A DNA stretch of 32,929 bases, taken from the NCBI GenBank assembly GCA_022013085.1, contig JAKLQX010000004.1, positions 1-32,929 of the forward strand. The letters run 5' to 3'. Both the position numbers and the translations under genes were made by a program. Below, piece by piece: positions 8,455 through 29,859 of this stretch. The notes below the pieces were generated by a model, which saw nothing but the letters and a program-made list of their open reading frames with translations, had not been told where the DNA came from and searched no databases. Each line of letters begins with the position of its first letter. The first letter of the stretch is position 1. The stretch is from Candidatus Omnitrophota bacterium. GTDB taxonomy: Bacteria > Omnitrophota > Gorgyraeia > Gygaellales > Profunditerraquicolaceae.

Positions 8455-9336
8455 TTAGAATTTCATCATCCCGCCCTGGGTAAACTGGATCAGGATGGGG
8501 CCGGCGACAATGATTAAAACCACTGGAAGGATAAATACGAGTAAGGGAAATAACAGCTTAATCGGAGCTTTTAAGGCCATTTCTTCGCCTCTTTGGAACC
8601 AGCGCAGGCGGATTTCCTCTGACTGCATCTTCAATGCCTCGCTAATAGGCGAGCCGATCCTGTCTGCCTGTAAAAGCGTCCTCACAAACGAACTAATCTC
8701 AGGGTTATTGATGCGGGTGGACATATTCTTTAACGCGTCACGCCGGGAACTGCCCATTTGTATTTCGTGGGCCATTATCTTCATTTCCTCAATAAGCGCG
8801 CAGGGCCTGAATTCCTGAATTACCCGGTTAACTGCCACCATAAAATCCAGGCCTGCCCCTACGCAGATATTCAAAAGGTCAATTACCAAAGGCAGGTCTC
8901 TCACAATCAAGGCGCGCCTTTTCTTAATCAGGTTATTCAGCCAGATGTCCGGTAAGATAAAACCAACGCCGGCGCAGATAACCAGTATCAGGAGTTCTGC
9001 GTGAACAGCAATAAAGGCGCCTAGCGGCACTGCCGCGGCCATGAACAATTTTAATATCATAAACTGGCTGGCGCTCATTATATTATTTGAGGAAGCTAAG
9101 CGTTTATGCAAATCGCTCGGGGACAAAGAGAGCATGGATTTGCCGAACAGGCGCTCGATAAGGCTGACTGGCCCGCTTAAAATATTTTTTAAATTAAATG
9201 CCTCCAGCCTTGAAGCCGCCGGCCCGGTAATTTCGGAAGGCAAATGCACCTCTTCCACCAGTTTACGGTTAGAAATATGATAGGCCACAAATCCAATACT
9301 GATAAACAACAATAAAATAATCAGCGCGAGTTCCAT
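8455..9336 (-). CDS. tadC: Tad pilus inner-membrane platform protein TadC
   Basis: This 293-residue protein carries a type II secretion F domain. It starts with a membrane helix (about 3-18), has central hydrophobic segments (FMILKLFMAAAVPLGAFIAV, LILVICAGVGFILPDIWL), then a cytoplasmic block typical of TadC (LPLVIDLLNICVGAGLDFMVAV, LLQADRIGSPISEALKMQSE, RWFQRGEEMALKAPIKLLFP) and a final helix. TadC and TadB form the platform at the inner membrane on which the TadA ATPase drives Flp pilus assembly. It is the last gene of the pilin operon and follows tadB with essentially no gap. Confidence 0.92.
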   Translation of the reverse strand: MELALIILLLFISIGFVAYHISNRKLVEEVHLPSEITGPAASRLEAFNLKNILSGPVSLIERLFGKSMLSLSPSDLHKRLASSNNIMSASQFMILKLFMAAAVPLGAFIAVHAELLILVICAGVGFILPDIWLNNLIKKRRALIVRDLPLVIDLLNICVGAGLDFMVAVNRVIQEFRPCALIEEMKIMAHEIQMGSSRRDALKNMSTRINNPEISSFVRTLLQADRIGSPISEALKMQSEEIRLRWFQRGEEMALKAPIKLLFPLLVFILPVVLIIVAGPILIQFTQGGMMKF

Positions 9337-9337
9337 A

Positions 9338-10183
9338 TTATATCTCCACCCGGCTTAACTTCCGGATCAAAACTATCCCGATTACTTCGGAAATCACCGA
9401 CCAGGCAAGCAGCATCTGGCCGGTTTTATCTTTAAGCATGATGTCAAAATTACCCGGGTTAGTGAAATACATGAAAACCCCGAAGGCAATCGGCAAGAGG
9501 CCCATAATCGCCCCCTGCAGCCGCCCCTGCACAGTGAGTATCCTTACGCGGTCGTCTAATTTTCTTTTTTCCCTGATGGTATGCACTAAATTTCCGAAAA
9601 TTTCAGTCAAGTCGCCTCCGGTTTCCCGGGAAATACTGATGGCAGTAGTTAATAATTCCAAATCATCTAAAGGTATTCTTTGCTTAAGATGCGCCAGGCA
9701 ATCCTCTAAGCTTACGCCCATTTTATTTTCTTTGATCACCAGGGCAAACTCATCGCTGATGGGCGCGGGCATCTCTTCGGTAAGCACCTCAAATGCCTGA
9801 GGTAAACTCATCCCTGCCTTAAGCGAGCTGGAAAGAAGCATCAGCGCATCTACCAGCTGCTTGGCGAAATTATTCAGCCTTTTTCGGCCCATATTTTTAA
9901 TCCATATCCGGGGCAATAATAAACCCAGGCCTGCGCCTGCTAAAACACCCAGTGGATTATGTAAGATCATAAATCCCAGCGTGCCCAGCACCAAAGGCGT
10001 AATCGTAAACACAGATAGTAAACGGCGCTTTTCAGTATAAATAAACATCTTATGCAGTTCTTTAGAGGCCTTTTCCATACGCTTACCCTGGAGCTGAGAA
10101 TAACGGCCTAAAAGCAAGGGAATTAATTCATAGGCCAAACCAGCGATGGAGCCGAAAATAAGTAAGATAATTATTAGTCTCAT
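9338..10183 (-). CDS. tadB: Tad pilus inner-membrane platform protein TadB
   Basis: This 281-residue type II secretion F-domain protein has an N-terminal helix (1-20), a pair of helices around 60-95, the family motif QLVDALMLLSSSLKAGMSLP, a conserved ETGGDLTEIFGNLVHTIREK block, and two closing helices (LQGAIMGLLPIAFGVFMYF and the last 20 residues). It pairs with TadC as the pilus assembly platform. It lies 3 bp behind the last small prepilin gene and directly before tadC. Confidence 0.93.
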   Translation of the reverse strand: MRLIIILLIFGSIAGLAYELIPLLLGRYSQLQGKRMEKASKELHKMFIYTEKRRLLSVFTITPLVLGTLGFMILHNPLGVLAGAGLGLLLPRIWIKNMGRKRLNNFAKQLVDALMLLSSSLKAGMSLPQAFEVLTEEMPAPISDEFALVIKENKMGVSLEDCLAHLKQRIPLDDLELLTTAISISRETGGDLTEIFGNLVHTIREKRKLDDRVRILTVQGRLQGAIMGLLPIAFGVFMYFTNPGNFDIMLKDKTGQMLLAWSVISEVIGIVLIRKLSRVEI

Positions 10184-10649: not shown

Positions 10650-11632
10650 TCTGATACTCTATTCCTTTCAAAAGGAGAATTTATATTTTCCACCCCCGAT
10701 CTACTCCTAATTTTATGAGTAATTGTCGTGGGATTTCCGGCTTCATCCTTAAAACTGTATGCGGCGGTACTTGCGCTTGTCCCGGGAGTTTCTTCTATGG
10801 TCAGCTTGCCGCTGCGCCTGATATTCTGCTCATCCTCCAATAATAGCCCTTGAATATTAGCGGGAGTTACGTCAGGAATACCATCATTATTAACGTCATT
10901 ATTCAACTGCGTATAATTAGGATTGATCTCACCTGAATCCGGGCTTAATAAATTCAGGCGGGTAAGCAGATCTCCGTTAACAGCACTATCAGGGCCTACG
11001 CCAATAACCTGATATTTTACAAATGAGATCCCTCCCCATTTTAAATAAACTTCGCTGATTATTTCTTTTTGTTTGTCGGCATCAGCTGCTTCGGGATTTA
11101 ATAAAATCATTGCTTGTTTAGGTGAATCTTCGGTGGGTTGATAACAACGCAGTTTATTCCAAGTCAGAAGCTGCGGGTCGGGGTTATTGGGAAACATTAC
11201 ATAAAATTGATTGGCAGGACTGGTAATAAAACCAAAACCCGCGGTCCTATATTCGTATTCTTTACCGTTAATCACATATTTCTTCCGGGGCAAAGTCGAA
11301 TAATCGGTAAGGTCGGTATATTTATCCTGTAGAGTATTGCCCCAGATTACCTCAGCGCTGGCTTGCACCGGAACAACACTACCCGCGCCAAACATATCGC
11401 GCGGATCGGGTATATGCTTATCCTTAAGCAACACAACCGAAGCTGAGGCATCCGGCCGGGCAGGCCCATTGTATGCTTCAGATAACGCCGTGCGAAAAGC
11501 AGCCATCTGCATATCCTGCTGGTAATTATAGCGCACTCCGTAACTGATCAAAAAAGACAAAACCAACAAAAGAATCGAACCAAAAGTTGCCAATTCCGTT
11601 AAGGTCTGCGCTTTTTTATTAAAATAAGCCAT
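10631..11632 (-). CDS. Large TadE/TadF-like pseudopilin with Ca-loop-like motif
   Basis: This protein of about 333 residues is anchored by a class III-type signal (NKKA, then QTLTEL) and a hydrophobic helix (about 15-33). A long periplasmic or pilus-exposed domain follows. That domain contains NDVNNDGIPD, a DxNxDGxxD loop of the dockerin/thrombospondin type that commonly binds calcium. The rest matches no family I know. ATG 11632 is preferred over TTG 11638 because GGAGA lies 9 nt before it. It overlaps the next gene by 19 bp. A minor subunit or tip component of the Tad pilus is likely from context, and an adhesive role is inference. Confidence 0.78.
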   Translation of the reverse strand: MAYFNKKAQTLTELATFGSILLLVLSFLISYGVRYNYQQDMQMAAFRTALSEAYNGPARPDASASVVLLKDKHIPDPRDMFGAGSVVPVQASAEVIWGNTLQDKYTDLTDYSTLPRKKYVINGKEYEYRTAGFGFITSPANQFYVMFPNNPDPQLLTWNKLRCYQPTEDSPKQAMILLNPEAADADKQKEIISEVYLKWGGISFVKYQVIGVGPDSAVNGDLLTRLNLLSPDSGEINPNYTQLNNDVNNDGIPDVTPANIQGLLLEDEQNIRRSGKLTIEETPGTSASTAAYSFKDEAGNPTTITHKIRSRSGVENINSPFERNRVSEWKITK

Positions 11633-12008
11633 CTTCAAATTCTCCTAATGTTTCTTTTCCGCTTTTCTGGGTAGTCTCATCAATACTTGCCTCTGTCTTC
11701 ATTCCGTAGACAGGCAAACCATATTGATCAAGCAAAGGTTTGCCGTCCTTGTCCAAGGGAACTAAAGATTGTATTATCCCTGTGGTGGAAGTTGTTTCTG
11801 TGATAATTTTTGACTCCACATTCAACGGTGTATATTGTTCGCCTAACTCATCTCCTGCCTGCCTGAGTTTACCCTGCACTCCCCGCCTGAGGTAAAACTG
11901 CATCCCTAAAAGCGCTGCCACTACGCAGGCAACTACCATGGCGTATTCCAATGTCGATTGCGCGCTTGCCTTAGCTGAGCCATATTTTTTAATTTGCATT
12001 GTCATCAT
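11619..12008 (-). CDS. Class III-signal prepilin with DKDGKPL tail
   Basis: This prepilin is about 129 residues from ATG 12008. A longer frame to 12083 would lie inside the previous gene and is unlikely. The leader ends KASA and is followed by QSTLEYAMVV, a helix of about 20 residues and the shared block MQFYLRRGVQGKLRQAG. The mature tail carries EQYTPLNVESKIITETT, like the QYxP tails of its neighbours, and LDKDGKPLLDQYGLPVYG, which resembles the DxDGxP loops of the large pilin upstream. The start lies 8 bp behind the previous stop, and the RBS is weak, suggesting coupling. Probably a pilus subunit. Confidence 0.8.
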   Translation of the reverse strand: MMTMQIKKYGSAKASAQSTLEYAMVVACVVAALLGMQFYLRRGVQGKLRQAGDELGEQYTPLNVESKIITETTSTTGIIQSLVPLDKDGKPLLDQYGLPVYGMKTEASIDETTQKSGKETLGEFEDGLF

Positions 12009-12015
12009 TATTTTA

Positions 12016-13122
12016 TTATGGAGTGCCGCCGGGTTTACTTGCCTTACCCTTTTGCTTTTCCAACGCGCCGAATGTGCCTGCACCCTCTAATTTATAAGTT
12101 GCTTCCCAAGCGCCGGTAGTCTGAGCCGTGTCCTTATCTATAATCTTGGTTCTCATCGGATAGGCAACCGTTGCCGGACCGATGCTGGGAGACACAGAAC
12201 TTATTGTTACTATCTCATGTTGCCCATAAATATTGCCGTCGCTACCGGTTACCCCCACAATTTCCTTAGTTACCGGATCAATTACATAACCGCTGTATGT
12301 CCTAAGTACTGTGAGCTTGCTATCTACGGTTGATACCGGAAAGCCATCCGGGTCAAATCCGGTAAAATCACCTGTGCGGGCGTCCTCTCCGCCGACAAGT
12401 ATTCTGTCTTTAGGGTCAGTGGTAAAGGTATAGTAATAAACCTTACTGCCTTTTATTTCTGTTTGAATAAACCCCTTGATCTTATCTTTTTCCATTCTTT
12501 CTTTATACGCTGTCATTGCCGGATGCCAATCCGCTGGCGCTAAACTTTTCGGCCCGCTATACTTTGAAAGAGTATCCACGGTGATTTTTTTGTCTGACTT
12601 AAACACTAAAGGATTTTTAGGATCTTTATATTCGAATTTAACTAATCCGGACTCAACTACTCCTTGTTGAACATAGGCGGCTCCTTGAACCCCTGTCAAA
12701 GCTTTGCCATTTTTATCGTAGACCACCGGCAGAGGATTGCCGTCTATATCCAGACTAGTAAAATTACCCGTAGCAATATCTTCTATGCCAATGCCGCGGT
12801 CTTTCTTTATTTTCGTTGGATTATCGGGATCCTCGATATAAACATTATAATAAAAACTATTGCCTGCCCGCTCTCTTATAAAGAACTCTCCGGCTATCAA
12901 TTTATCTTTGTATGCTATTGCCAGCGGATGCCACGCCCTGGTTGCTTCATCCACCTCGATTCTACCCTCTGTTTGCTCTCCGGCTAAGGTATCGGCAGAG
13001 GTTTTGACTATACCCTGTATGCCCCGCTTAATATAACTCTGCATACCTATCCCGGCTAAGGTAACCAGGACAATTACCAACACATACTCATTTATACTCT
13101 GGCCCATTCTGCGCATTTTCAT
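12016..13122 (-). CDS. Large class III-signal prepilin with two internal repeats
   Basis: This prepilin has about 368 residues, several times the usual Flp size. The start at ATG 13122 directly follows the upstream stop. A frame from 13173 is possible but would place 17 residues inside the previous gene. The leader MKMRRMG is followed by QSINEY (cleavage after Gly), then a hydrophobic helix and the shared MQSYIKRGIQG block. The exposed part contains two homologous units (about residues 64-134 and 199-264). Each opens WHPxxxAYK, passes through a Y-rich strand and TGxFT, and ends in DxDGxPV. The unit matches no domain I know. It may be a tip or minor adhesive pilin, an inference from size and context. 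Confidence 0.78.
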   Translation of the reverse strand: MKMRRMGQSINEYVLVIVLVTLAGIGMQSYIKRGIQGIVKTSADTLAGEQTEGRIEVDEATRAWHPLAIAYKDKLIAGEFFIRERAGNSFYYNVYIEDPDNPTKIKKDRGIGIEDIATGNFTSLDIDGNPLPVVYDKNGKALTGVQGAAYVQQGVVESGLVKFEYKDPKNPLVFKSDKKITVDTLSKYSGPKSLAPADWHPAMTAYKERMEKDKIKGFIQTEIKGSKVYYYTFTTDPKDRILVGGEDARTGDFTGFDPDGFPVSTVDSKLTVLRTYSGYVIDPVTKEIVGVTGSDGNIYGQHEIVTISSVSPSIGPATVAYPMRTKIIDKDTAQTTGAWEATYKLEGAGTFGALEKQKGKASKPGGTP

Positions 13123-13123
13123 T

Positions 13124-13459
13124 TTATTGCACACCCCTTTTGGCTGTGCCTTTGACGACTGTGCTATCCTCAAGAGAATCCCGGGTTGTTAGGCCTTCAT
13201 ATTTTACATCTTCATTAACTATTTTAGATTGCTTAACTGTAAATTCGTCCTGGACATAGTATGGCTCATATTGTTTGGGGCTTGCGGCCTGTTTAGCCGC
13301 GTGATCTACCAATTCCCGGTATCTTCCCTGTAAGCCCCTTTTTACATAAAGCTGCATGCCTAAAAGCGCGGCTAAAACTAATGCCAGACAAATGCTATAT
13401 TCAGCCACGCTTTGTGCCCTGCTTATTCTCGATATTTTATTTACTATACAAATCCTCAT
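13124..13459 (-). CDS. Class III-signal prepilin, QYEPYY tail
   Basis: This prepilin is about 111 residues from ATG 13459, which has AAGG/GGGG just upstream and overlaps the preceding gene by about 20 bp. A longer frame to 13534 lies within that gene and is not favoured. The signal ends ISRA and is followed by QSVAEYSICL, a helix, and MQLYVKRGLQGRYRELV. The mature tail has KQYEPYYVQDEFTVKQS, then a Lys/Glu-rich segment. The QYEPYY element is shared with the 116-residue pilin at 13796. Context and signal make it a pilus subunit, and which one is dominant cannot be told. Confidence 0.8.
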   Translation of the reverse strand: MRICIVNKISRISRAQSVAEYSICLALVLAALLGMQLYVKRGLQGRYRELVDHAAKQAASPKQYEPYYVQDEFTVKQSKIVNEDVKYEGLTTRDSLEDSTVVKGTAKRGVQ

Positions 13460-13781
13460 CCTTACCCCAGGCCTCAATCTTTTCATCAGCCAGGCTTTCT
13501 TTCTTCTGCACGCGACCGGCACCGGAACCATCACCTAAGTCAATATACTTTTGAGTTGTAGCTCTGTTTTTAAGAGTCTGTTCTGTATAACTCTTACTGG
13601 TTGTTTGGAATTTTCCGGTATGTTTGGTAGGGTCATATTGCTCGCCAATATCATCGCTAGCTGACTTTAATCTTCCGGCATAACCATGCTTCATATAATG
13701 CTGCATCAGCAAAAGCCCGGCAATGATCACTGCGGTTATCAACGCATATTCTAATGTGCTCTGGCCCTTTTTGTTAAACAT
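13437..13781 (-). CDS. Class III-signal prepilin
   Basis: This 114-residue prepilin has the signal MFNKKG then QSTLEYALIT, a helix of about 20 residues and MQHYMKHGYAGRLKSAS, a diverged form of the operon signature. The tail has EQYDPTKHTGKFQTTSKS, aligned with the QYxP tails of its neighbours, and a charged C-terminus. A strong RBS, GGAGG, lies 9 nt before the ATG. The 17-bp region ahead of the ATG is identical to that of the next pilin upstream (13796-14146), which suggests recent duplication of the gene start. Confidence 0.85.
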   Translation of the reverse strand: MFNKKGQSTLEYALITAVIIAGLLLMQHYMKHGYAGRLKSASDDIGEQYDPTKHTGKFQTTSKSYTEQTLKNRATTQKYIDLGDGSGAGRVQKKESLADEKIEAWGKDEDLYSK

Positions 13782-13795
13782 CTTTGTTCACCTCC

Positions 13796-14146
13796 TTAAT
13801 CAGCGCTGGTTGTGCTCAGGACTGTCTCAACCCCGCCTGCATCAACCTTGGTTTCCTCTTTTACGTTACTACGAGTAATCGCACCGCGATTCCCCAGTGC
13901 CTCATCGGCAGTTCTCTCGCTTCTTACTTTTGTAACGGATTCCGCGTAATACGGCTCATATTGATTACCGGTAAAGTTTAAATTAACGCCACCCACATCT
14001 TGCGATGTACCGGTGTGTTTAACCGCTTCATGAATTCTACCCTGCAAACCCCTTTTAACGTAGGTCTGCATTCCTACTGCTGCGGCAATTATCAATGCGA
14101 TAAGAATCGCATATTCCGCTGTATTCTGGCCCTTTTTGTTTAGCAT
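13796..14146 (-). CDS. Class III-signal prepilin, QYEPYY tail
   Basis: This 116-residue prepilin has the signal MLNKKG then QNTAEYAILI, a helix, and MQTYVKRGLQGRIHEAV, the clearest copy of the family signature. The mature tail contains NQYEPYYAESVTKVRSERT and a Val/Thr-rich end. The RBS GGAGGTGAACAAAG is identical to that of the following gene. It lies between the canonical short Flp-like genes and the longer pilins. It is likely a pilus subunit processed by a TadV-type peptidase not encoded here. Confidence 0.85.
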   Translation of the reverse strand: MLNKKGQNTAEYAILIALIIAAAVGMQTYVKRGLQGRIHEAVKHTGTSQDVGGVNLNFTGNQYEPYYAESVTKVRSERTADEALGNRGAITRSNVKEETKVDAGGVETVLSTTSAD

Positions 14147-18763: not shown

Positions 18764-19294
18764 TCTCTTCAATTGCTCAAGGAACTCAGGATGAAGCTTT
18801 TCTCCTAACGCTTCTAATCTATGGACATCTTCCCAGCATTTATTGTATTCCTGCTTTAGAAAATATACGGAGGCCCGGTTATGATAAGCCCCAACTAATT
18901 TAGGATCCAACTCTATGGCCTTGGCGTAGTCAGAGATGGCTTGATCAAGATCGCCCTTTTTAGCATAGGCAAGGCCGCGCCGATAATATGCCTTTGTATA
19001 ATTAGAATTAAGCTCTATAGCCTTGGTATAGTCAGAGATGGCTTGATCAAGATCACCATTTTCAACGTAGGCACGGCCCCGGTGATAATAAGCAGCGCCG
19101 TAGCGCGGCTTAATCTGAACGGCGGTATTGAATGCGCTAATTGCCTTGTCGTACATTTTACTTTTAAAATAGTCATTGCCTTTATCAAACATCTCCTTTT
19201 CCGGGTTTTGGGCATAGGCATTGGCGGTAATAAAAAGTAAAGCTGCAAAAATATTTATACTCACCTTGCGCAAATTATATCTTTTAAAGTTCAT
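18743..19294 (-). CDS. Secreted TPR protein (TadD-like position)
   Basis: This 183-residue protein has a signal peptide (NLRKVSINIFAALLFITANAYA, cleavage near 28) and at least three tetratricopeptide repeats (YFKSKMYDKAISAFNTAVQI, AYYHRGRAYVENGDLDQAIS, AYYRRGLAYAKKGDLDQAIS) plus a degenerate fourth. The second and third are near copies at the DNA level too. Tad systems have a TPR lipoprotein, TadD, that helps assemble the outer-membrane secretin. This gene closes the second Tad operon and is the best candidate for that task, but it lacks a lipobox. Its ATG overlaps the previous stop (ATGA) and GGAGGGG precedes it. Confidence 0.85.
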   Translation of the reverse strand: MNFKRYNLRKVSINIFAALLFITANAYAQNPEKEMFDKGNDYFKSKMYDKAISAFNTAVQIKPRYGAAYYHRGRAYVENGDLDQAISDYTKAIELNSNYTKAYYRRGLAYAKKGDLDQAISDYAKAIELDPKLVGAYHNRASVYFLKQEYNKCWEDVHRLEALGEKLHPEFLEQLKRLSGRER

Positions 19295-21941
19295 TCTACC
19301 CCTCCATTTAAAAAGGATTTTCTTTTTCTAAAACAGTTTCGGGATTTAACTAATTGATAGTAGATCTGATTTGGGATATTTGTCCTTAAATGCTCCCAAT
19401 TACTCTGGCTGCGGTGTTGAGTCAACGACTTAAAAGCAATCTGATGAATTGTTTTATGTTCCGATGAGATATATTCTAAAGGATTAATTTTAAGTTGGCT
19501 ATCTGCCGTATCCTCTTCATTACTTATCGAACGTTGATAAAACTTAAGCGGCTGCCAGGGCAGCAGGCCGTTCCTAATCATCGCAGGATAAGCTTCCGGG
19601 TCGCCGGCTAAATCAAACGCCTCTTTGGCCAGCATAACTAAAACCCGGTGCTGGCCAGATTCTTTGGGATTTGCGTCATTGTGCCTGGTAATAATTATCT
19701 GCGGCCTAATCAGGCGGATAAAGTAAACTAATTTTTCCAAGGTATCTTTTCTTCCCCATTTTTCAAGTGTTTCATCGACGGAAAGAGTGTAACCGAAATC
19801 TGCCTTGCCTAAATAATAAATCTTTTTTACCCCTAAAATAGAGGCGGCTCTTTCCATCTCTTTAGTGCGCAGGAACCCCAATTTTTCATGAAGAGCAGTG
19901 TTGATCTTATTCCTTCCTCCTTCTCCCCGGGTAGCCAAAAGCGCGTAAGTTTCGCAATTCAATTTCTTACGGAAATATACAAGCGCGTAGCCATCTTCGT
20001 CATCGGGATGCGCGGCCAGGCAAAGAACACGGGCCTTACTTTTACCGCCCTGAATTACGATTTGCTTTGTCCTTTCAAACTCTTTACCGATGACATAGGG
20101 GCTGCGGGTAAAAATCCCATATTGGCTGACTCTGCCGCCTTCGTGCTGGCCGACTATAAACATGGGTATCTTGGCCCCCATTTGCGCTTCTTTTATAATC
20201 TTTAGGTTATCGTGAAGATAATACATTCCTCCTAGATTATATTTTTTAAATATGCCGGTATCTTTATTGCAATCAAAGATAAGCTTCTGGCAAATCTTTT
20301 CTTCAATGGGCATATCTTTTAAGAGATGTTCCAGGGGGATGGCAAAAATTTTCTCTTTTTCTTTGAGTATCCGCGAAACCGACGCATCAATATCTTTTTC
20401 ATTAAGGAGGCCCTTTCCTACCGCCTCTTTTACGGTATTGATTATACAAGCGGCAGTTCCTTCTACTTTATCCTCAGCCGGATAAACTATCGCCATATCT
20501 GCGCCTGCCTGGAAAGCCTCAAGCACGATTTCGCCGCTATACGGTTCATTAATTCCCTGCTTAAGAGCGTATTCTTTCATTGCCCGCATAGCCAGTAATT
20601 CATCTGCCACGATTATACCCTTAAACTTTAATGCCTTACGCAAGAGCTCGGTTTGAATCTTATAAGATAAAGACGCGGGCTTATCGTCCAAGGCAGAATA
20701 AATCGCATGATCAACCATTATCCAGCTATCGGGGTATTTTTTAATAATTTCCCTGAAGGGAACCAGGTCTTTGTTATAGAGTTCTCTTTCAGAAATATTC
20801 ACCTCAGGCAGGGTAAGATGCGTATCAGCATAAACTGCGCCCAGGCCGGGGAAATGCTTGATTACAGGTATGATCTTACCTTTAAGCATCCCTCTAACCG
20901 CCGCAGAAGCCAGCTCAGTAACAATTTGCGGGTCATCTGAATACATCCGTTGTTTTTTTACTAAAGGATGGGTTAGGTCTTCAATATTATCCGCTACATC
21001 AACCACCGGAGCAAAATTTACATTATAGCCGTTAGTGCGCATATATTCGGCTATATTTAACCACTCATCCTCAATCTGCCCAAGATACGCCTCTTTATCC
21101 GCCGGAATATTCCAGAATAGCTCTTTATCTTTAATAAAAGTTTCAAAAAGGTCCTTTTCTTTTTTTACGTCCAATTGCGTGGCATAAGAATTCAAAATTC
21201 TATTTTTAAGTTCTTTAAAATAGGCAATATCTTCGTTGAACGCGGGCCGTTGAGAAAAAAGAAAGGGTCCTTTTAATGCGGGATTATGGATTAGATAATA
21301 AGATACCGCAGCCTCGGGGTTTAATTTCTTCAAAGCGAGATTTAAAAAAAAGGCGGTTGCCTGATGGTCCGCGTGAGTATCTGAAGGATGGGGCGCGTAT
21401 ATCCTTTGAGGATTATATTCCTTAATTATGCCTTCTATGTCCGAAAGCAGGTTTTCCCGGCTGTACCCCTTCTTTGCCCGCTTATAGGTTATCCTATAAG
21501 GAGAAGAGCTTGCTCCGGTTGTAGGAGATTTATAATTTTGGTTGTATTCTTTTTTCCAGAGATAAGAAAGCCCCTGGTCCGGATAACTTAAAAAAATTAT
21601 GTACTTTGCCTCCAGGCGCATTTTTTTGGCTGCTTGCAATGCCTCTCTTTGGCGTTCTTTTCCAAAGGTGATATAATCCTTTGGGCTAAGTTCCTCCGGT
21701 TTCTTTTTAAACCAAACAGCCGCCGCCTGAGAAGATGCATCACCGTTGGTCAAAAAAACTATTTTTACTTTTTTATTTTCCTGGAGTGCCTTAAGAATGG
21801 TCCCGCCGCAGGCAAGGGTTTCATCGTCGGGATGGGGAGAGAAAACGAGGATATCAACCGCGGATTCTGCCTGCGTTAAATTGACGTTGAAGATAAAAAA
21901 AAATATAAAAAAATGAGAAAAATATATTTTTTGTTAATCAC
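19291..21941 (-). CDS. PIG-L deacetylase / permuted GH3 / PIG-L multidomain enzyme (frameshift near start)
   Basis: A reading frame of over 870 codons fuses three catalytic modules. PIG-L/LmbE domain 1 has SPHPDDE and HPSDTHADHQA zinc motifs. A GH3 C-half follows (NFAPVVDV, IIPVIKHFPGLG, catalytic DTH dyad, nucleophile Asp in VADEL), and then a GH3 N-half (MPIEEKI to VGQHEGGRVSQYG), so the halves are in reversed order. PIG-L domain 2 has AAHPDDE and RHNDANPKESGQH. Together they suggest deacetylation and cleavage of N-acetylhexosamine polymers outside the cytoplasm. A GTG at 21941 overlapping the previous stop gives a good signal peptide (MINKKYIFLIFLYFF) but in another frame. One extra T in the T9 run (21903-21895) joins them. 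In-frame translation without this change could only start at TTG 21753, losing the first zinc motif. Confidence 0.8.
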
Positions 21942-24198
21942 ATTTGGTCTCGGCTATATAAATATCGCTCTTTTCCGGGCCGTAATGCGCTGTGCTACAA
22001 CTGGTAATGGCATCAGTTAAAATCGCATTAACAGAACTCTGGGTTGAATCTATCTTAGCGTTATCCTGAGCATCCCTCACTATATTCTCTAATTGCTCAA
22101 GGGAAAATTCAGCAGCAGCGGGCGCTTTTCTGCGCTTTAACTTCCACCCTCCCTCAGCCGTTTTCCCTACACCCGTCGGCTGATCCTGGTCGTAACGCCA
22201 GACTATTATTTTAAAATCTCCTGCGCCACTTTCTAGCTTCCAGCGCTTTTGTAACCCTAACCACTCTACAGTTTCGCTAATATAAGGAAGCTTTTCTGGA
22301 TAACCTTCTATCGCCACCTGCACAAAGTGGGAGAATTGTTGCCCCCCATCTACCTTAGGCTTATCCTTCCAGGCATAAACAATTTCGTTTCTTATTTTAG
22401 AAGCACATGGTAATCCTGGCAAACACGTCGGAGTAACATGTTGTATATACGCATCTACATACTCCTCGATACTCTTTTTTATATTACCGATATCGTAATT
22501 CAAGGCTCGTAGAATTTTCAGCGCTTGCTCAACTTCGGTAGGGCCGGAGGTATTATCGTGTGCCAACTGGCCTTGAAAAAGGCGCGCATCATCGCCGCAG
22601 TCAAATGAATGAACACTACATCCGCAGTTACTATGGCAACTGGCTTGATCTTTATGGCTTGCGCACCAACCGGGTTGAATTCCATACAAATCTCCGTCGC
22701 TACATACGGGCGGATTCTCACAACAGGTATAATATGTTCCTTCCCAGGCACAGGGTGATTTTTCTGACGACGGATAACAACAGGTATTACAACAACAATC
22801 GGAGCAATCGCTGCCGCAACAGTGACAATCGCATTCAGGAGTACTACAACCGTATTGCGTATAACAAGTACTACTAACTGAAACGCCCCTGCCCCAGGTG
22901 CATTCTCCGTGTTTACTTTTTATATCCGGGACAACAGTGGTATTATTTAAAGCTTCTAACTCCGTAATCCAAGTATTAATATTATTTTGGTCGCGGGTTA
23001 AGCGCTCATAAGCGTCGTCTTCTAAATCCCCGTCTATACTGCTTTTATCCAGATTATGCTGATTAGAATCGTAAAAAAAGGGAAGCCATTGTGTTGTGTT
23101 GTTTAATGCTGCAGTCATAGGCATATCCACAAACTCTTTGCTTCTGAATAAAAACATCCTCAGGTCTTCAATTAACTTATTCACATCGCTACAGGTTACC
23201 GTTGCTGTGGTACAGGGATCTGACGAACTACAAAAGCTTAAAGAAGGATACGCGCATTTTAACCGTTGCAACAAACTGATCAGCTTATCTGTTAAAAATC
23301 CGCCGGTAACCTGGCTTGGCCCCTCTGGCTGAGTTGCGTCTATTTTCATTATTGCTATTTGTTTACTCGTAACATTTTTAACCCAAGCCGGGCAAGAAGC
23401 GCTGGAAGTACAGGTAATTTCGTAATTAGCCGAATCTTCCTCCAATCCCGGTTCAATAAAATAAGAAAACTTGTTAATCTTCCATTTTTCACTATCCCAT
23501 CCGTCTTCAACGTCGATAGCAATGAACCTTTTGAGCCCGCTTTTAAATGTATCCAGGGCCTGTTTTAAATCGTCATCACTCACCAACGGTAGCCGTAAGG
23601 CATAATACCAAGCAGCGAATCTGCCTACTTTATTTGCATTGCGCATTTCAGGGATAGCGCTTAAATCATAATCTTTGCCGGTTGCCTCGTCGCGAAAAAT
23701 GCTTACTCCCACTCTTTTCAACTCAACATCGTCGCTCTGTGTAGAAAGCAATGCCCCAAACAGAGCACTCTCTCTTAAGGCATCGTGTGTAGTCATCTCT
23801 TTATTAAATCTATCGGTTATACCTCCAAGCATAGATGTGGACATTGACATCGAAACTAACAAGCCCAATCCGGTAAGAAGAACTACCGGGCTTATTAAAA
23901 TCCCTCCTACAATGGAGCCGACTAAAACTAACACCAACGCCAGCCAACCATAACCAGTTTTCTCTGTTTGCCCACCTAACACCTCATCCTTATAATAATG
24001 GCTCATGCTGCCCAACTGCGAGGCTAAACTCAAAGCGACCTTATCTGCTGCTTGCGAGGTTGAGGTTTTAATCTGGATCACTTTGCTGATATTTATAAAT
24101 ACGGCGGTAAATAAAATTATCACCGCGATGACAAAGGTGATAATCACGGCGATCTGGCTGCGGCGGTTTAGCGGTAGGTTTTTGCGGAAGAAATTCAT
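21934..24198 (-). CDS. TadG-like pilus assembly protein with Cys-rich insert
   Basis: This 754-residue protein starts with the TadG/TadE-type module (NRRSQIAVIITFVIAVIILF, then a helix and QAADKVALSLAS, 12-60), plus a second hydrophobic stretch (85-125) unusual for the family. The long extracytoplasmic region is not recognisable as a von Willebrand A domain. Residues 433-534 contain 22 cysteines (for example CDCHCCGSDCSDCCCNTCC), implying dense disulfides or metal binding. TadG is a putative minor pilin or adhesin-like anchor of Tad systems. Its ATG overlaps the TadZ-TadA stop by one base (TAATG). The Cys-rich part is the most unusual stretch of the operon. Confidence 0.78.
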   Translation of the reverse strand: MNFFRKNLPLNRRSQIAVIITFVIAVIILFTAVFINISKVIQIKTSTSQAADKVALSLASQLGSMSHYYKDEVLGGQTEKTGYGWLALVLVLVGSIVGGILISPVVLLTGLGLLVSMSMSTSMLGGITDRFNKEMTTHDALRESALFGALLSTQSDDVELKRVGVSIFRDEATGKDYDLSAIPEMRNANKVGRFAAWYYALRLPLVSDDDLKQALDTFKSGLKRFIAIDVEDGWDSEKWKINKFSYFIEPGLEEDSANYEITCTSSASCPAWVKNVTSKQIAIMKIDATQPEGPSQVTGGFLTDKLISLLQRLKCAYPSLSFCSSSDPCTTATVTCSDVNKLIEDLRMFLFRSKEFVDMPMTAALNNTTQWLPFFYDSNQHNLDKSSIDGDLEDDAYERLTRDQNNINTWITELEALNNTTVVPDIKSKHGECTWGRGVSVSSTCYTQYGCSTPECDCHCCGSDCSDCCCNTCCYPSSEKSPCAWEGTYYTCCENPPVCSDGDLYGIQPGWCASHKDQASCHSNCGCSVHSFDCGDDARLFQGQLAHDNTSGPTEVEQALKILRALNYDIGNIKKSIEEYVDAYIQHVTPTCLPGLPCASKIRNEIVYAWKDKPKVDGGQQFSHFVQVAIEGYPEKLPYISETVEWLGLQKRWKLESGAGDFKIIVWRYDQDQPTGVGKTAEGGWKLKRRKAPAAAEFSLEQLENIVRDAQDNAKIDSTQSSVNAILTDAITSCSTAHYGPEKSDIYIAETKCD

Positions 24199-26312
24199 TA
24201 CTCTTTCTTTGTTCCTGTGGTTTTAAACTCTCCCTGAATTTTTCCCTGGCTGTCAATACCGGACTGCTTAAAAACAAACAGGTCATTTAATCCGATATGC
24301 ATCTCATCAACCATGCCGGTAATTTCCGTGATCTGGGTGATCTTTCTTGAGCCGTCGGAAAAACGGGCAGTATGCACAATCATATCAATGCTGGAGGCAA
24401 TCATCTCGCGGATTGCCCGCAGGGGAATCTCGATACCGCTCATCAGGATCAGGGAATCCAGGCGCGCTAAAACATCCTGCGTGGAGTTGGCATGAATGGT
24501 AGTCATCGAGCCGTCGTGGCCGGTATTCATTGCCTGAAGCATATCCATAGTTTCCTCGCCCCGGCATTCTCCGATAATAATCCGGTCCGGCCGCATGCGC
24601 AGGGAATTACGGAATAAATCACGCACGAAAATCGCCCCTTTTCCCTCAATATTCGGGGGCCGTGACTCCAAGCGTATCCAGTGTTGATGGTCGAGCTTTA
24701 ATTCCGCCGCGTCTTCAATAGTAATTACCCGTTCTCCTTCAGGAACAAACTCCGAGAGCACGTTCAAAACCGTGGTTTTTCCCGAGCCGGTGCCTCCGGA
24801 AACGATGATGTTTTTACGCGCTAAAACGCAGGCCTTGAGAAACTCCCCCATAATCTTATTTAAGGCGCCCAGCCGCTCTAAATCATTAACTTTCAGCCGC
24901 TCCTGGCTGAATTTTCTAATCGTCAACGTCGGGCCGGTAAGGGAAAGCGGAGGAATAATCGCGTTGACCCGTGAGCCGTCGGAAAGCCGGCCGTCAACCA
25001 TCGGCACCGACTCATCTACTCTCCGGCCTAAGGGCGCGATAATCCGCTCGATTATCTGGCGCACCTGTTCATTAGATACAAAACGCTTAGGAACTAACTC
25101 GAGCTTACCATGTTTTTCGATGTAGATCTGGCTCTTATTGTTCACTAAAATATCGGTAATTTCGGGGTCACTAATCAAATCTTCTAAAGGGCCCAAGCCC
25201 AAAATCTCGTCACTGATCTCCTTGATCAGCCGCTCCCGATCCTGGCGCGAAGAAATAAGCGCCCCTGCTTCATCCATGAGCGCGGTATTGATCGCTTTCA
25301 TTGTCTTCCGGCGCAACTCCGCGATTTTTGCCATATCCCCGGCTACATGGTCGAGGCGCCGTAAATCCAATTCCTGAATAACGCGCTTATGCACCCGTTG
25401 TTTTAAATCGTCTATTTTCTCTTCGCCGGTGAGTTTTCTCTCTGTGGGCTTGCGGCCGCCTAAAGAAAGTGACTCCAGAGAGGAAGTATCCTCTTCTAAA
25501 AATTCTCTTTTTTTTTCCGTAATCGGAACAGCTGCTTCTAATTTTTTATGGGAGATAAAAAAATCGGGGTGAGTGAGTAAATCCTCGGCTAATTTATTCA
25601 GCACAATACTTACGCGCGAACGCGGGCTATCCAGCACCACGGGTATCCCGCGGTTCAAGGCAGAACCAACAGCCTTGCCCTCCGACGGGATGCGGCTGAT
25701 TATATCGCAGGGCAAAGCCGCCCTTACTTCCTGCCAGGATACCGCTCCTGTGCTTTCCGCGCGGTTTAAAACCACGCGCATCATCTTGGCGGGAAAATAC
25801 AGTGACTGCAGCATTTTAATGTCTTCTTTCGCCTGATAAACCGAAAGGACATCGGGGTTAATCGCCAATAAAATCAAATTTGTCTGCTCCAGAATCGCGA
25901 TCAACGCTTTGTTAAATGTCCTGCCGCTGTCGCAAACAATAAATTCGTATTCTTTGCTCAAATCATTCAGAACACAAGAAATAAACTTTTCATCAACATA
26001 GGGCCTTTCTTCGGCAGTTAATATCAAAGGCAACAGGTCCATATTCGCGGCGGGATAATGAAGAATATATTCGCCAATCTGTGAAGGGGAATAATTGCCT
26101 TTCTGCCAGTCGGGAATAAGGTCGGCCAAGGGCTTTTTCGGCTTTAAATTCAAAAGCATCGCCATATTGCCCGGCAGCTGCAAATCCGTATCAAAGAGCA
26201 AAACCTTTTTACCTTTAGTTAATTTCTGGGCTAAGGCAACCGCAAGGTTGGTGACAATAAACGTCCTTCCTACGCCGCCTTTAGTGCTAAAGATAGAAAT
26301 AACCTGGGCCAT
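24198..26312 (-). CDS. tadA: TadZ-TadA fusion: localisation ATPase joined to pilus motor ATPase
   Basis: One 704-residue polypeptide combines two Tad ATPases that are normally separate. Residues 1-250 are a MinD/ParA-like TadZ/CpaE domain, with a P-loop KGGVGRT (11-17) in which the second lysine is arginine, and FDTDLQLPGN (40-49). After a linker, residues 310-704 are CpaF/TadA, with Walker A GGTGSGKT (506-513), Walker B RIIIGECRG (577-585), His box and Asp box (ITIEDAAEL). TadZ places the complex and TadA powers pilus polymerisation. A single frame through the junction and a clean linker argue against an assembly artefact. It lies two bases from the secretin stop. Confidence 0.92.
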   Translation of the reverse strand: MAQVISIFSTKGGVGRTFIVTNLAVALAQKLTKGKKVLLFDTDLQLPGNMAMLLNLKPKKPLADLIPDWQKGNYSPSQIGEYILHYPAANMDLLPLILTAEERPYVDEKFISCVLNDLSKEYEFIVCDSGRTFNKALIAILEQTNLILLAINPDVLSVYQAKEDIKMLQSLYFPAKMMRVVLNRAESTGAVSWQEVRAALPCDIISRIPSEGKAVGSALNRGIPVVLDSPRSRVSIVLNKLAEDLLTHPDFFISHKKLEAAVPITEKKREFLEEDTSSLESLSLGGRKPTERKLTGEEKIDDLKQRVHKRVIQELDLRRLDHVAGDMAKIAELRRKTMKAINTALMDEAGALISSRQDRERLIKEISDEILGLGPLEDLISDPEITDILVNNKSQIYIEKHGKLELVPKRFVSNEQVRQIIERIIAPLGRRVDESVPMVDGRLSDGSRVNAIIPPLSLTGPTLTIRKFSQERLKVNDLERLGALNKIMGEFLKACVLARKNIIVSGGTGSGKTTVLNVLSEFVPEGERVITIEDAAELKLDHQHWIRLESRPPNIEGKGAIFVRDLFRNSLRMRPDRIIIGECRGEETMDMLQAMNTGHDGSMTTIHANSTQDVLARLDSLILMSGIEIPLRAIREMIASSIDMIVHTARFSDGSRKITQITEITGMVDEMHIGLNDLFVFKQSGIDSQGKIQGEFKTTGTKKE

Positions 26313-26313
26313 A

Positions 26314-28005
26314 TTATTCTAGTTTATAGACAATGGGGATAACTATGCGGAGTTCTTTTTGATTGAGCTCCGCAGGGAACGGGGGATAAGGAGATATCTT
26401 TTTAACCATACTCACTGCGTCCTCATCAAATATGCTGTATCCCGATGATTGTTTGACCTTCACCTCTAAGAGCGCGCCCGTAGAATTAAGCCGTAAATCT
26501 AATCTTACCAAACCTTGCATTTGGCCTTGTTTAGCTGCCCAAGGATAAACTAAATTATCCTGTATACGCTTGGTAATTCTACCCATATATTCAGACATCG
26601 CCTGACTGGTTAATTCGGCAGGAGAGATCACTTTGGTTTCATCAGGCATAGGCGTTTCAATTTTAGCGCTTTCTCTGATTAGAGGTACCTTGGCTGCTGC
26701 TACTGGGATTGCTGCTACTGGAAGAGGCAATTGTGTTTTCACTACTTCTTTAACAAGCGCGGGTTCTTTTATAATTGTGGGAGTAAGCGTAATCACCAAC
26801 TCTGTATCGCCTCTCTCTCCCGTACCGCCTCCGGCTGTAGTTGTTTTTTTCCTGAAAAATACACCCAACACCGGTATATCCCCCAAGAAAGGAGTTTTGC
26901 GGATATCTTCCTCGGACTTTTGCTTGATCAGCCCGCCGATAGCCATCATCTGGCCGTCATTAAGAAAAAGCTGCGTGGATGCGTTGCGCTTGCTTAAAGG
27001 ATAGGCCTTGGCCGTAGTAGTCGTAGTCGAGCCGCCCGTTGAACCAATGGTATCCGCTACGCCCACATCGCTGACTTCTACACTCAATGCCAACTTAATC
27101 TGCTTATCTTCGGTTATCGTGGGTTTTATCTTTAACTTAATACCGTATTCTTTATATTCTATATTTGTGCCGCTGGCTCCGGTAGAAGCCGCGATACTGG
27201 TATTAAATATCGGTTTTTCTCCGCCGACTAACAACTCCGCTTCCTTGCCGCTCTGGCAGGCAAGCCGGGGTTGAGAAAGGATGCGCGCCTTTCCTTCTTG
27301 AACCAAGGCGTCTAATTTAAAGGTAAACGGATCGGCGCCGGCAGAAGTACCCCGCTCTAAATTTAAAACTTTAAATAAAGTCGAAAATTTCGTGCCCGCG
27401 GCGGCAATACCGGGAGAGCCTACTTCCATAAGGTTTAGAGCTCCCGGAAAGGTAAATCCCAACGCCTTAGAAGCATCTTTATTTAATTCCAGAACTTGCA
27501 CATTAATCTCGACCACTGCCCTTTCTTCCATTAATTGGATAAGATTGGTGGTTTTCCCTTTAAGTGAACTTAAGGCAACATCAATACGCTCTAAATCCGA
27601 AGGCGTCTTTACGCTTCCTAAAAGTAAAACTTTGCCTTCACTATCCGACGGCCGCGTAAAAACCTTGGGAAAATTCAATTCCTTTAAAAGGGCGTCTATT
27701 CTTTTTTTAATCAAATTCATATCTTCCTGAAAAACCTCTACCTGTAATGTGTGCTGGCCCGCTGCATCCCACCAGACCAAATTGGTTGCGCCCGGGCTTT
27801 TGGCCACCAAAATCATATCAGCCTTGCTTACCGCGGTGACATCAAGGATATTCGGGTTATTAATTACTATTTTGGTTGGGGTATTTACCGGAAAAACTTT
27901 GATTTCTGTAACGTATAAAGTTATAAGTTTTAGCTCTTCAGCATAGGCTCCCGCCGCGGATAAAATAAAAAACAGTAAAAATGTAAATTTAAGCATGGCC
28001 TTCAT
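26314..28005 (-). CDS. cpaC: Tad secretin (CpaC/RcpA) with C-terminal TonB domain
   Basis: This 563-residue protein has a signal peptide (about 1-22) and a pilus-type N-terminal domain (PTKIVINNPNILDVTAVSKA to WWDAAGQHTLQVEV). A BON-like module and a secretin domain (ILSQPRLACQSGKEAELLVG, GQMMAIGGLI, TPFLGDIPVLGVFFRKK) follow. A Pro/Ala-rich linker then leads to a TonB C-terminal-like domain at about 473-563 (VYPWAAKQGQMQGLVRLDLR, VKVKQSSGYSIFDEDAV, PYPPFPAEL, IPIVYKL). The secretin forms the outer-membrane pore of the pilus. The TonB-like tail is not part of CpaC/RcpA and is notable. It overlaps cpaB by 4 bp (ATGA). Confidence 0.9.
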   Translation of the reverse strand: MKAMLKFTFLLFFILSAAGAYAEELKLITLYVTEIKVFPVNTPTKIVINNPNILDVTAVSKADMILVAKSPGATNLVWWDAAGQHTLQVEVFQEDMNLIKKRIDALLKELNFPKVFTRPSDSEGKVLLLGSVKTPSDLERIDVALSSLKGKTTNLIQLMEERAVVEINVQVLELNKDASKALGFTFPGALNLMEVGSPGIAAAGTKFSTLFKVLNLERGTSAGADPFTFKLDALVQEGKARILSQPRLACQSGKEAELLVGGEKPIFNTSIAASTGASGTNIEYKEYGIKLKIKPTITEDKQIKLALSVEVSDVGVADTIGSTGGSTTTTTAKAYPLSKRNASTQLFLNDGQMMAIGGLIKQKSEEDIRKTPFLGDIPVLGVFFRKKTTTAGGGTGERGDTELVITLTPTIIKEPALVKEVVKTQLPLPVAAIPVAAAKVPLIRESAKIETPMPDETKVISPAELTSQAMSEYMGRITKRIQDNLVYPWAAKQGQMQGLVRLDLRLNSTGALLEVKVKQSSGYSIFDEDAVSMVKKISPYPPFPAELNQKELRIVIPIVYKLE

Positions 28006-28904
28006 TTTTCTTTGTTTGCTGCTGATAGGGGAACAATTTCTTTTTGCAAGCCGCGATAGATCTCCACTACCGGCTGGCCTTCCAAGCCTATTTTCTCACC
28101 CTGGCTGGTGGATAAATAATTCAACAAGGTATCCCAGTCAACCGGTGCAACCGGGTCAACCCCGGTATCCTGCGAGGAACGCAGGGCTAATTTGATCTTG
28201 CCGTGTTCCTGAACAAAAGAAAGCAATACCGCTTCCTGGGGCGTAAGCGCAAAAGTAACGGGTTGCGCCGCGGCAGAGCCTTCTTTTGTTTTATATTTTG
28301 AAGCAACCATTTCATTTCCCATGGCTAATACTTGAATGCCTTGAAAAAGTGAGATTAAACGCGGGGCGGAACTTTCCGTTGCTTGCGGAGCGGCCTTCTT
28401 AGGTAAAGCAATAAGCGCGAATATATCCACGTAATCGCCGGGTTTTAGCAAACTGGCGATACCGGAAAGGCTCTCCGCTGAAACCGTTATCGCCCTTTTG
28501 CCTTCGGGCGTAATTTCCGAAAGAGTCTTGCCGATATTTCCGGGAGGAAGAAGTTTACTGCTGAGTATCTGCTCTTCGGCGGCAATCGGGCCGGAGGCAA
28601 TCTGGCCCATAACCTGCTCAAAAGAGGTAACTGCGCCGGGCTGGATATATTCCACCGGCACCTGTTTAAATGTAATGTCTTCGGCAGTAATCGGAGTTTG
28701 CGCCGGGATATCTTTTTTCGCCACCATCACCACTCCCATGGTTACTTTCGGTTTGGCAGCCAGGGCCTTTTGTTCCTCCTGTTTCATCCTCTCCCAGATT
28801 TCAACTTCTCTTTTTCCAAGATAGAGGTTTAACAATATTATCGCCGCAATCCCGCAGACAACCGCGATAATCAGAGGGAATTTTCTTCTTAATTCTATTT
28901 TCAT
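28002..28904 (-). CDS. cpaB: CpaB/RcpC pilus assembly protein
   Basis: This 300-residue protein has an N-terminal membrane anchor (PLIIAVVCGIAAIILLNLYL) followed by a SAF domain (VVMVAKKDIPAQTPITAEDI, AEEQILSSKLL). The RcpC-type segment follows (RAITVSAESLSGIASLLKPGDYVDIF, VTFALTPQEAVLLSFVQEHG). CpaB/RcpC sits in the periplasm, binds wall or glycan through its SAF fold and aids the secretin. It is co-translated with neighbours: its ATG overlaps the lipoprotein stop (TAATG) and its own stop overlaps the secretin start. The C-terminal 45 residues are an extension of modest length. Confidence 0.93.
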   Translation of the reverse strand: MKIELRRKFPLIIAVVCGIAAIILLNLYLGKREVEIWERMKQEEQKALAAKPKVTMGVVMVAKKDIPAQTPITAEDITFKQVPVEYIQPGAVTSFEQVMGQIASGPIAAEEQILSSKLLPPGNIGKTLSEITPEGKRAITVSAESLSGIASLLKPGDYVDIFALIALPKKAAPQATESSAPRLISLFQGIQVLAMGNEMVASKYKTKEGSAAAQPVTFALTPQEAVLLSFVQEHGKIKLALRSSQDTGVDPVAPVDWDTLLNYLSTSQGEKIGLEGQPVVEIYRGLQKEIVPLSAANKEK

Positions 28905-29812
28905 TATTTTATCAAATCCTGGTATAGGACTACTTTGGTTTTCTTTAACAAGCCGGTGGTTATCTCTTTTAATTTTTGCTGCTGTTTAAGAAACAGAACA
29001 CTTCTTTTAATCTCATCCCATAACTCTGATAAAACCCTTACCTGGCCCCCTTTTATCGCTTCTACCTTTATTATATAGTAACCGTTCTTTTCTTTAAAGA
29101 CGGTGCTGAGTTGGCCGGCTTCTAATAAACGTGAAAAAGCTATTTCGTCAAAACGGCTGTAATCCGCGCCGCGCTTGCCCTTTTTGATAAAACCTAAATC
29201 CCCTCCGTTTGCGGCGCTTTGCGCTTTTGAACGCTGCGTCGCCAAGGCGGCGAAATCCGCGCCTTTGAGCAGTTCGATAAGCACATCTTTTGCTTCCGCC
29301 TCGCTATCCAAAACAATCTCCCGGATTTTTCTTTCCTCTTCCTGACGGTACTGATCTTTAAAAGTATTGTAAAATTCTTCAATTTCCGAGGAAGTAACCG
29401 TTATGTTGTCTATTTCGTCATGGAGAATCTGGCTGGCTAAAACATTAATCTCCAGGTTCCTCAAGAGTTCCTGGGGTTTCGGCTGCTTATCCAGGCCCCT
29501 GGCTTTTGCCTCTAAATACAAAAGGTAACGCCGGACTAACTCTTCGTTTAAGTAAGCAATTTTTTGCTCGCGGGTATTGATTTTGGCTTCGGGGTTATCC
29601 GTGGATTCATTATAACTGCGGATTTCCTGCTCTAGCTGCTCTAAAGTAATGGGCAGGTCATTGACGTAAGCAACCACCGTGCCCTGCGGCTGCCAGGATT
29701 TAGCTTTGGAAGAAATTTTTAACTTTTTATCAACCTGCTCGCACCCGGATAAGCATAAAAATAAAAACAATAACACACAAGCAAGGGGAACCGACGGGTT
29801 TTTACGTCTCAT
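28904..29812 (-). CDS. SurA/PrsA-like peptidyl-prolyl isomerase lipoprotein
   Basis: A lipoprotein of about 302 residues. Signal peptide and lipobox LCLSGC (cysteine near residue 24) anchor it, and a SurA-N-like chaperone part follows (VAYVNDLPITLEQLEQEIRS). A parvulin domain at about 150-260 has RKIREIVLDSEAEAKDVLIE, the GGDLGFIKKGKRG motif and FKEKNGYYIIKVE. It would help fold exported proteins, here probably the secretin or pilins. ATG 29812 is chosen because GGAG is 8 nt upstream. The GTG at 29818 overlaps that site. It is the first gene of the second Tad operon, an unusual but sensible partner. Confidence 0.88.
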   Translation of the reverse strand: MRRKNPSVPLACVLLFLFLCLSGCEQVDKKLKISSKAKSWQPQGTVVAYVNDLPITLEQLEQEIRSYNESTDNPEAKINTREQKIAYLNEELVRRYLLYLEAKARGLDKQPKPQELLRNLEINVLASQILHDEIDNITVTSSEIEEFYNTFKDQYRQEEERKIREIVLDSEAEAKDVLIELLKGADFAALATQRSKAQSAANGGDLGFIKKGKRGADYSRFDEIAFSRLLEAGQLSTVFKEKNGYYIIKVEAIKGGQVRVLSELWDEIKRSVLFLKQQQKLKEITTGLLKKTKVVLYQDLIK

Positions 29813-29859
29813 CTGCACTACTCCTTCGTAAAAGTTATTTCTTGCTCGATAACCTATAA

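Follow-up and report, generated by a model that had tools for sequence, protein, structure and literature searches.

The C-terminal domains of the TonB family (TonB_C) are known from work on inner-membrane motors, whose tips they form, and an ordinary TonB or TolA C-terminal domain (CTD) caps an inner-membrane-anchored transducer that is driven by ExbBD or TolQR. These CTDs bind through beta-strand addition (PMC12204202), and peptidoglycan binding by the TonB CTD has been proposed (reviewed in PMC9022066). The secretins of Tad pili, such as RcpA of P. aeruginosa (8odn) and CpaC of Caulobacter, consist of a pilus-secretin domain and a channel domain and are encoded in operons with CpaB and CpaE/TadA. 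RcpA forms a ring of 13-14 subunits, and its final four residues bind the pilotin TadD, essential to secretin formation (PMC10499894). RcpC/CpaB binds the N-domain of the secretin in P. aeruginosa (PMC12307814). Two secretins are linked to the cell wall by other proteins, and both are possible functional parallels to the case described here. In Dickeya the secretin is tied to peptidoglycan by GspB/OutB (PMC9239104), a separate inner-membrane protein that sits on the secretin N0 domain and in which TonB_C has not been reported. In Caulobacter, an OmpA-like, peptidoglycan-binding collar of CpaD surrounds the Tad secretin CpaC; density connects the secretin to peptidoglycan, and the link through CpaD comes from tomography and modelling (PMC13170226).

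In the uncultured Omnitrophota, Tad systems have been connected with both predation and symbiosis (PMC10066038). That study, the main survey of the phylum, covers Tad and RcpA, and the words secretin and TonB are absent from its text; a 2025 paper on the evolution of TolA/TonB makes no mention of secretins either. No secretin-TonB_C fusion was found described in the open-access papers searched.

The window (the whole stretch of DNA that was analysed, 32,929 nucleotides) carries such a fusion. The open reading frame at 26314-28005 is a Tad (CpaC/RcpA-type) secretin joined by a disordered linker to a complete TonB_C domain, so that where RcpA ends in a short coil, the Omnitrophota secretin ends in a linker and TonB_C. 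The source genome is 91% complete with an estimated contamination of 5.13%, and the secretin sequence is identical in genome G006. The gene and its parts are as follows.

26314..28005, minus strand: secretin-TonB_C fusion gene of the Tad CpaC/RcpA type, 563 aa plus stop (Pfam, NCBIfam, 63-member alignment)
27940..28005, minus strand: probable signal peptide, residues 1-22, MKAMLKFTFLLFFILSAAGAYA (by eye; helix 2-20 in the model)
27733..27921, minus strand: N-terminal pilus-secretin domain PF13629 (T2SS-T3SS_pil_N), residues 29-91 (Pfam 4.3e-12)
26767..27309, minus strand: secretin channel domain PF00263, residues 233-413 (Pfam 5.2e-41)
26623..26766, minus strand: flexible linker with Pro/Ala, residues 414-461 (pLDDT, column conservation)
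26317..26622, minus strand: TonB_C domain, residues 462-563, helix-helix-strand-strand-helix-strand (AlphaFold, Foldseek; Pfam core 484-562 = 26320-26556)

The sequence-only reading had recognized the CpaC/RcpA-type secretin, the Pro/Ala linker and the TonB-C tail, all of which Pfam, NCBIfam, AlphaFold and Foldseek bear out, and the motifs that it listed (YPxxA, SSG, PYPPFP, IPIVYKL) occur in the protein and are for the most part conserved. Its interval, 26314-27800, located the fusion gene but ended too early, omitting about 69 N-terminal residues.

The tail belongs to the TonB_C family, and the whole protein to the Tad secretin family. Pfam TonB_C (PF03544) matches residues 484-562 over model positions 2-79 of 79 (E=1.8e-15; 57.6 bits, cut-off 24.6), Pfam TonB_2 also matches the tail (2.2e-9), and NCBIfam TIGR01352 (tonB_Cterm) gives 53.6 bits (cut-off 27.1). 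In the AlphaFold2 model residues 462-563 form a separate domain, with 10-residue pLDDT blocks mostly of 93-98 and of 85 at the extreme end, and the domain modelled by itself has a mean pLDDT of 93. Most of the linker at 421-461 has a pLDDT below 50 (63-sequence alignment). Foldseek with the domain alone places the H. pylori TonB CTD at the top and, to E ~0.03, returns solely TonB, HasB, FusB and TolA domains, with probability 1.00 against 6sly, 5lw8, 2gsk and TolA entries; a profile of the 63 relatives also matches the H. pylori TonB CTD in the PDB by sequence, at ~5e-13. Because the profile, AlphaFold, Foldseek and PDB sequence matches agree, the domain is real. A different domain at the C-terminus is ruled out by the Pfam, NCBIfam, PDB profile and Foldseek results, none of which gives a confident match to another kind of domain there, and the tail shares both sequence and fold with the TonB and TolA CTDs (PF03544, TIGR01352; 6sly/5lw8; TolA III).

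Across the relatives, TIGR01352 matches 63/63 proteins and Pfam TonB_C 62/63, while PF00263 is found in 63/63 and PF13629 in 62/63. The NCBIfam model NF038079 (MxcH-type TonB-dependent receptor) matches 20/63 of the TonB_C domains, and these matches suggest a precedent for a TonB_C-like part on an outer-membrane protein; MxcH, however, is a siderophore receptor and the Omnitrophota protein a multimeric secretin.

The fusion is found in many Omnitrophota. Elsewhere in the same genome, at an independent locus (L005:11371-12990) with its own Tad cluster, a paralogue has the same architecture; TonB_C is absent from the four further secretins detected in the genome. All 97 relatives' genomes give a secretin match, and many of the matches align over the full length, TonB_C included. 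In at least 146 of 384 Omnitrophota genomes, an even sample of the phylum for which this count is a lower bound, a single open frame runs across the secretin end and TonB_C; nearly all of the genomes compared are metagenome assemblies, with few exceptions. The best 80 named loci comprise 77 under the label Candidatus Omnitrophota and three whose label says no more than 'bacterium'. A Tad secretin that seemed to be without TonB_C, a 403-aa frame in genome G010, is in fact cut by the contig end.

Mean column conservation is 0.59 in TonB_C, close to the 0.60 of the N-terminal domain, and 0.13 in the linker, which varies from 17 to 79 residues (median 31, counted over residues 414-469 in the 63 relatives). 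Distances between TonB_C domains track those between secretin cores (Mantel r 0.64, 0 of 2000 permutations). Since the domain is strongly constrained relative to the linker and has co-evolved with the secretin core, it is functional and anciently fused; the sequence comparison points to an old fusion maintained by selection. In a plasmid collection, 844 records gave a secretin match; no record reached 80% coverage of the query, and the listed secretin matches stop by residue 421; nor was a TonB_C tail found among solved secretin structures. TonB_C as a general feature of Tad secretins is therefore not supported by either set.

TonB_C is not confined to Tad secretins in this phylum. GspD-type secretins of 550-720 aa end in a TonB_C-like domain in many Omnitrophota, and TolC/OEP proteins carry TonB_C between the N-terminus and the channel part. 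In another Omnitrophota class (family f56), a spacer of 140-165 residues, 53-59% K/E/R/Q, precedes TonB_C in the Tad secretin of the same operon. In two of these proteins, of 1016 and 1068 aa, another 129-213 residues (~75% K/E/R/Q) separate this domain from a second TonB_C.

L175-L182, L185-L190, L193, L194: GspD-type (T2SS-like) secretins with a C-terminal TonB_C-like domain
L183:6588-8399, L184:52-2115, L191:7110-8978, L192:6617-8548: TolC/OEP channels with TonB_C near the N-terminus
L232:3809-6856, L233:4394-7597: long-spacer Tad secretins with two TonB_C each
L234:1-2508: long-spacer Tad secretin, cut by the contig end

In L185 the neighbours of the GspD-type fusion are GspK/L/M-like and ExeA-like genes. 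In a tree of 73 TonB_C domains, built on ~100 columns and weakly resolved, 27/27 Tad-secretin domains fall on one branch (93/88), which also holds one long-branch TolC row and one fragment labelled GspD; 14/16 of the GspD-labelled rows make up a separate branch (98/95) that is nested among free-standing TonB-like proteins. Three TolC-type domains lie apart. The better reading of these sequences is that TonB_C was probably gained separately by Tad secretins, GspD-type secretins and TolC-type channels.

The gene order around the fusion is conserved in the named loci: lipidated peptidyl-prolyl isomerase (PPIase), CpaB, secretin-TonB_C, CpaE-TadA fusion, DUF192 protein, long coiled protein and pilins. 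The Tad genes of the window include the following, the TadB, TadC and TadG-like assignments being sequence readings.

28904..29818, minus strand: lipidated peptidyl-prolyl isomerase with lipobox LSGC (PF13145 3.3e-14)
28002..28904, minus strand: CpaB (RcpC), inner-membrane alignment protein (TIGR03177 3.7e-47)
24198..26312, minus strand: CpaE (MinD-like)-TadA ATPase fusion, 704 aa (PF01656 / PF13614, PF00437, TIGR03819)
21934..24198, minus strand: TadG-like protein of the Tad cluster, 754 aa (sequence reading)
11619..14146, minus strand: run of Flp-pilin-like small ORFs (repeated prepilin-like N-termini)
8455..10183, minus strand: TadC and TadB platform-like proteins of the Tad cluster (sequence reading)

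CpaB adjoins the fusion gene, and the lipidated PPIase heads the operon, in 58/58 named loci with sufficient upstream sequence; the CpaE-TadA fusion follows the secretin in 67/67 with sufficient downstream sequence, and at the paralogous locus CpaE and TadA are likewise one protein (L005:9210-11366 (-)). TadC/TadB-like homologues lie downstream in 10 named loci. A lipobox is present in all PPIase homologues with a readable N-terminus, and this enzyme is possibly a folding factor for the secretin or a pilin; Asp or Glu directly follows the lipid cysteine in most of the homologues. No TadD-like TPR gene is conserved in the 80 loci, and a TPR protein of the window, used as query, gave only 6 matches in these loci.

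By secretin topology, TonB_C should sit on the outer-membrane pore. The C-terminus should lie on the periplasmic side, because the C-terminal tips of RcpA bind its pilotin, and since secretins are rings (13-14 subunits in RcpA, PMC10499894) whose C-termini are periplasmic, beside the outer membrane, a single pore would present some 12-15 TonB_C domains, the arms being flexible or, for the other class, long and helical. The reading that we tentatively prefer is that these arms tether the channel to peptidoglycan or to a peptidoglycan-bound protein. They would bind the peptidoglycan layer, or a protein fixed there, with the ring giving avidity; the tether would keep pore and inner-membrane Tad machinery aligned under the forces of pilus extension and retraction, and the arms may also help the secretin to settle into the outer membrane. 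The arrangement would amount to a reversed TonB or TolA, anchored in the outer membrane, reaching inward, and passive rather than motor-driven: the ordinary CTD is carried to the periplasm from the inner membrane, whereas the Omnitrophota copy is on an outer-membrane ring.

A common ligand, either peptidoglycan or a protein bound to it, is the best explanation for the joining of TonB_C to Tad, GspD-type and TolC-type channels. All three cross the outer membrane and have to hold their position with respect to both the wall and the machinery of the inner membrane, and the two wall-linked secretins described above achieve this through other proteins; on these grounds an anchor is favoured. The Caulobacter CpaD is a separate lipoprotein. 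No CpaD (PF09476) was detected in the source genome, and Pfam found no known peptidoglycan-binding domain in the ten window proteins scanned, both of which are in keeping with an anchor on the secretin itself. The long spacers and paired domains of the other class argue that the arms there cross the periplasm rather than return to the outer membrane; a 160-residue spacer, if helical (as judged from composition alone), would be ~240 angstroms long. Against the anchor, peptidoglycan binding by TonB CTDs has the standing of a suggestion in the cited literature, and TonB and TolA CTDs are best known as protein binders that act by beta-strand addition (PMC12204202). The median tether of ~31 residues would, moreover, leave many of the domains near the outer membrane, and the four secretins of this genome without TonB_C mean that the module is not obligatory even there. 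Of the three partners named by the sequence-only reading (peptidoglycan, CpaB or a TonB-box pilus partner), peptidoglycan is the favourite.

A broader and somewhat less secure proposal is that the TonB/TolA CTD may serve in Omnitrophota as a general, motor-independent periplasmic anchor in reversed orientation, added separately to Tad, GspD-type and TolC-type channels, with helical spacers and tandem domains in one class. Here the outer-membrane channel itself bears the TonB_C fold, which is conserved in many families of the phylum and occurs on channels of three unrelated types. The fusion offers a natural way to ask whether, independently of ExbBD, a TonB/TolA CTD has peptidoglycan or some other part of the envelope as a ligand, and it bears on how Tad secretins with no obvious pilotin or CpaD anchor stay in place.

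In the main rival, the arm captures one particular protein of the periplasm or outer membrane, pairing by beta-strand addition with a TonB-box-like or TolB/Pal-like peptide, and so recruits that protein to the channel, peptidoglycan not being the direct ligand. This is possible, if on the unlikely side. Beta-strand addition is the known mode of TonB and TolA CTDs (PMC12204202), which also makes a TonB-box partner conceivable; the closest folds in the Foldseek search include TonB complexed with TonB-dependent receptors (TBDRs) and TolA complexed with TolB; the C-terminal strand LWIDIPIxY ranks among the conserved parts of TonB_C in the 63-member alignment; and OmpA/Pal-like proteins are present in the genome. 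However, with three unrelated channel types and separately acquired domains, the same partner or several would be needed. TBDRs themselves are poor candidates for a TonB-box partner: the PF00593 barrel was detected in 82/97 relatives but gave no match in ten fusion-bearing genomes, five of which are >=90% complete and <=5% contaminated (G054, G062, G074, G080, G086), so TBDRs appear not to be needed.

It is doubtful that TonB_C has an assembly or targeting role in place of the pilotin TadD, even though it occupies the very end that binds TadD in RcpA (PMC10499894), and the locus has a lipidated PPIase instead of a conserved TadD-like gene. In the other class TonB_C lies 140-165 residues from the barrel, a pilotin could be encoded elsewhere in the genome, and Caulobacter manages without CpaO (PMC13170226). 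The TonB_C fold is not known to have a lipoprotein-like targeting function, which also counts against this role.

Bridging by the arm to CpaB or another Tad component, which would couple the secretin to the inner-membrane complex, is improbable. It draws on the constant adjacency of the CpaB gene, on the long helical arms of the other class, which could span to the inner membrane, and on the Caulobacter model, in which CpaI forms the bridge between secretin and CpaB (PMC13170226). But the secretin N-domain, which is the CpaB/RcpC site in P. aeruginosa (PMC12307814), is intact in the Omnitrophota protein, and CpaB plays no part in the GspD and TolC versions; CpaB is thus a less likely one among the suggested partners.

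Energy coupling, with the secretin gated or powered via ExbB/ExbD or TBDRs, is very improbable. ExbD and TBDRs do occur in most relatives, and a TonB-ExbBD system in the same genome, but there the ordinary TonB is a separate protein next to ExbB/ExbD. The N-terminus of the fusion protein looks like a cleavable signal peptide, with secretin domains after it, and because the protein has no inner-membrane helix able to meet ExbB it cannot be an ExbB-driven TonB; an ordinary TonB energy transducer is ruled out by this and by the fusions in genomes with no detected TBDR. Finally, an artefact of annotation or assembly, or a decaying passenger domain, is a negligible prospect despite the metagenome-derived contigs and the estimated contamination, given a continuous, strongly conserved frame in the paralogue and in more than 140 genomes, and assembly fusion or frameshift is ruled out by the same recurrence at a second locus and in many genomes.

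Several other features of the loci are recorded here. The Flp-pilin-like ORFs of the window are overlapping and tandem, with differing C-terminal tails, and similar arrays occur in 43 named loci. The TadG-like protein, which gives no Pfam or NCBIfam match, has a dense Cys-rich stretch (CDCHCCGSDCSDCCCNTCC). An 800-aa protein at 29917-32319 (-), with a 645-aa paralogue at L005:6653-8590 (-), has an HTH-like start, a long K/E-rich coil and an unmatched C-terminal half; it has zero Pfam/NCBIfam matches, yet homologues are found in 47/80 named Tad loci. Omnitrophica bacterium 4484_171 (L097) has the PPIase-CpaB-secretin-TonB_C-CpaE/TadA block; Tad complexes have been reported absent from family 4484-171 (PMC10066038), to which this isolate may belong. 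Another secretin of the source genome (L239, G000:C95:1235-2647) has a 916-aa frame that runs into Ala/Lys-rich tandem repeats. Within the window, an 820-aa ORF at 19291-21753 (-) combines a glycoside hydrolase family 3 match with two PIG-L deacetylase matches.
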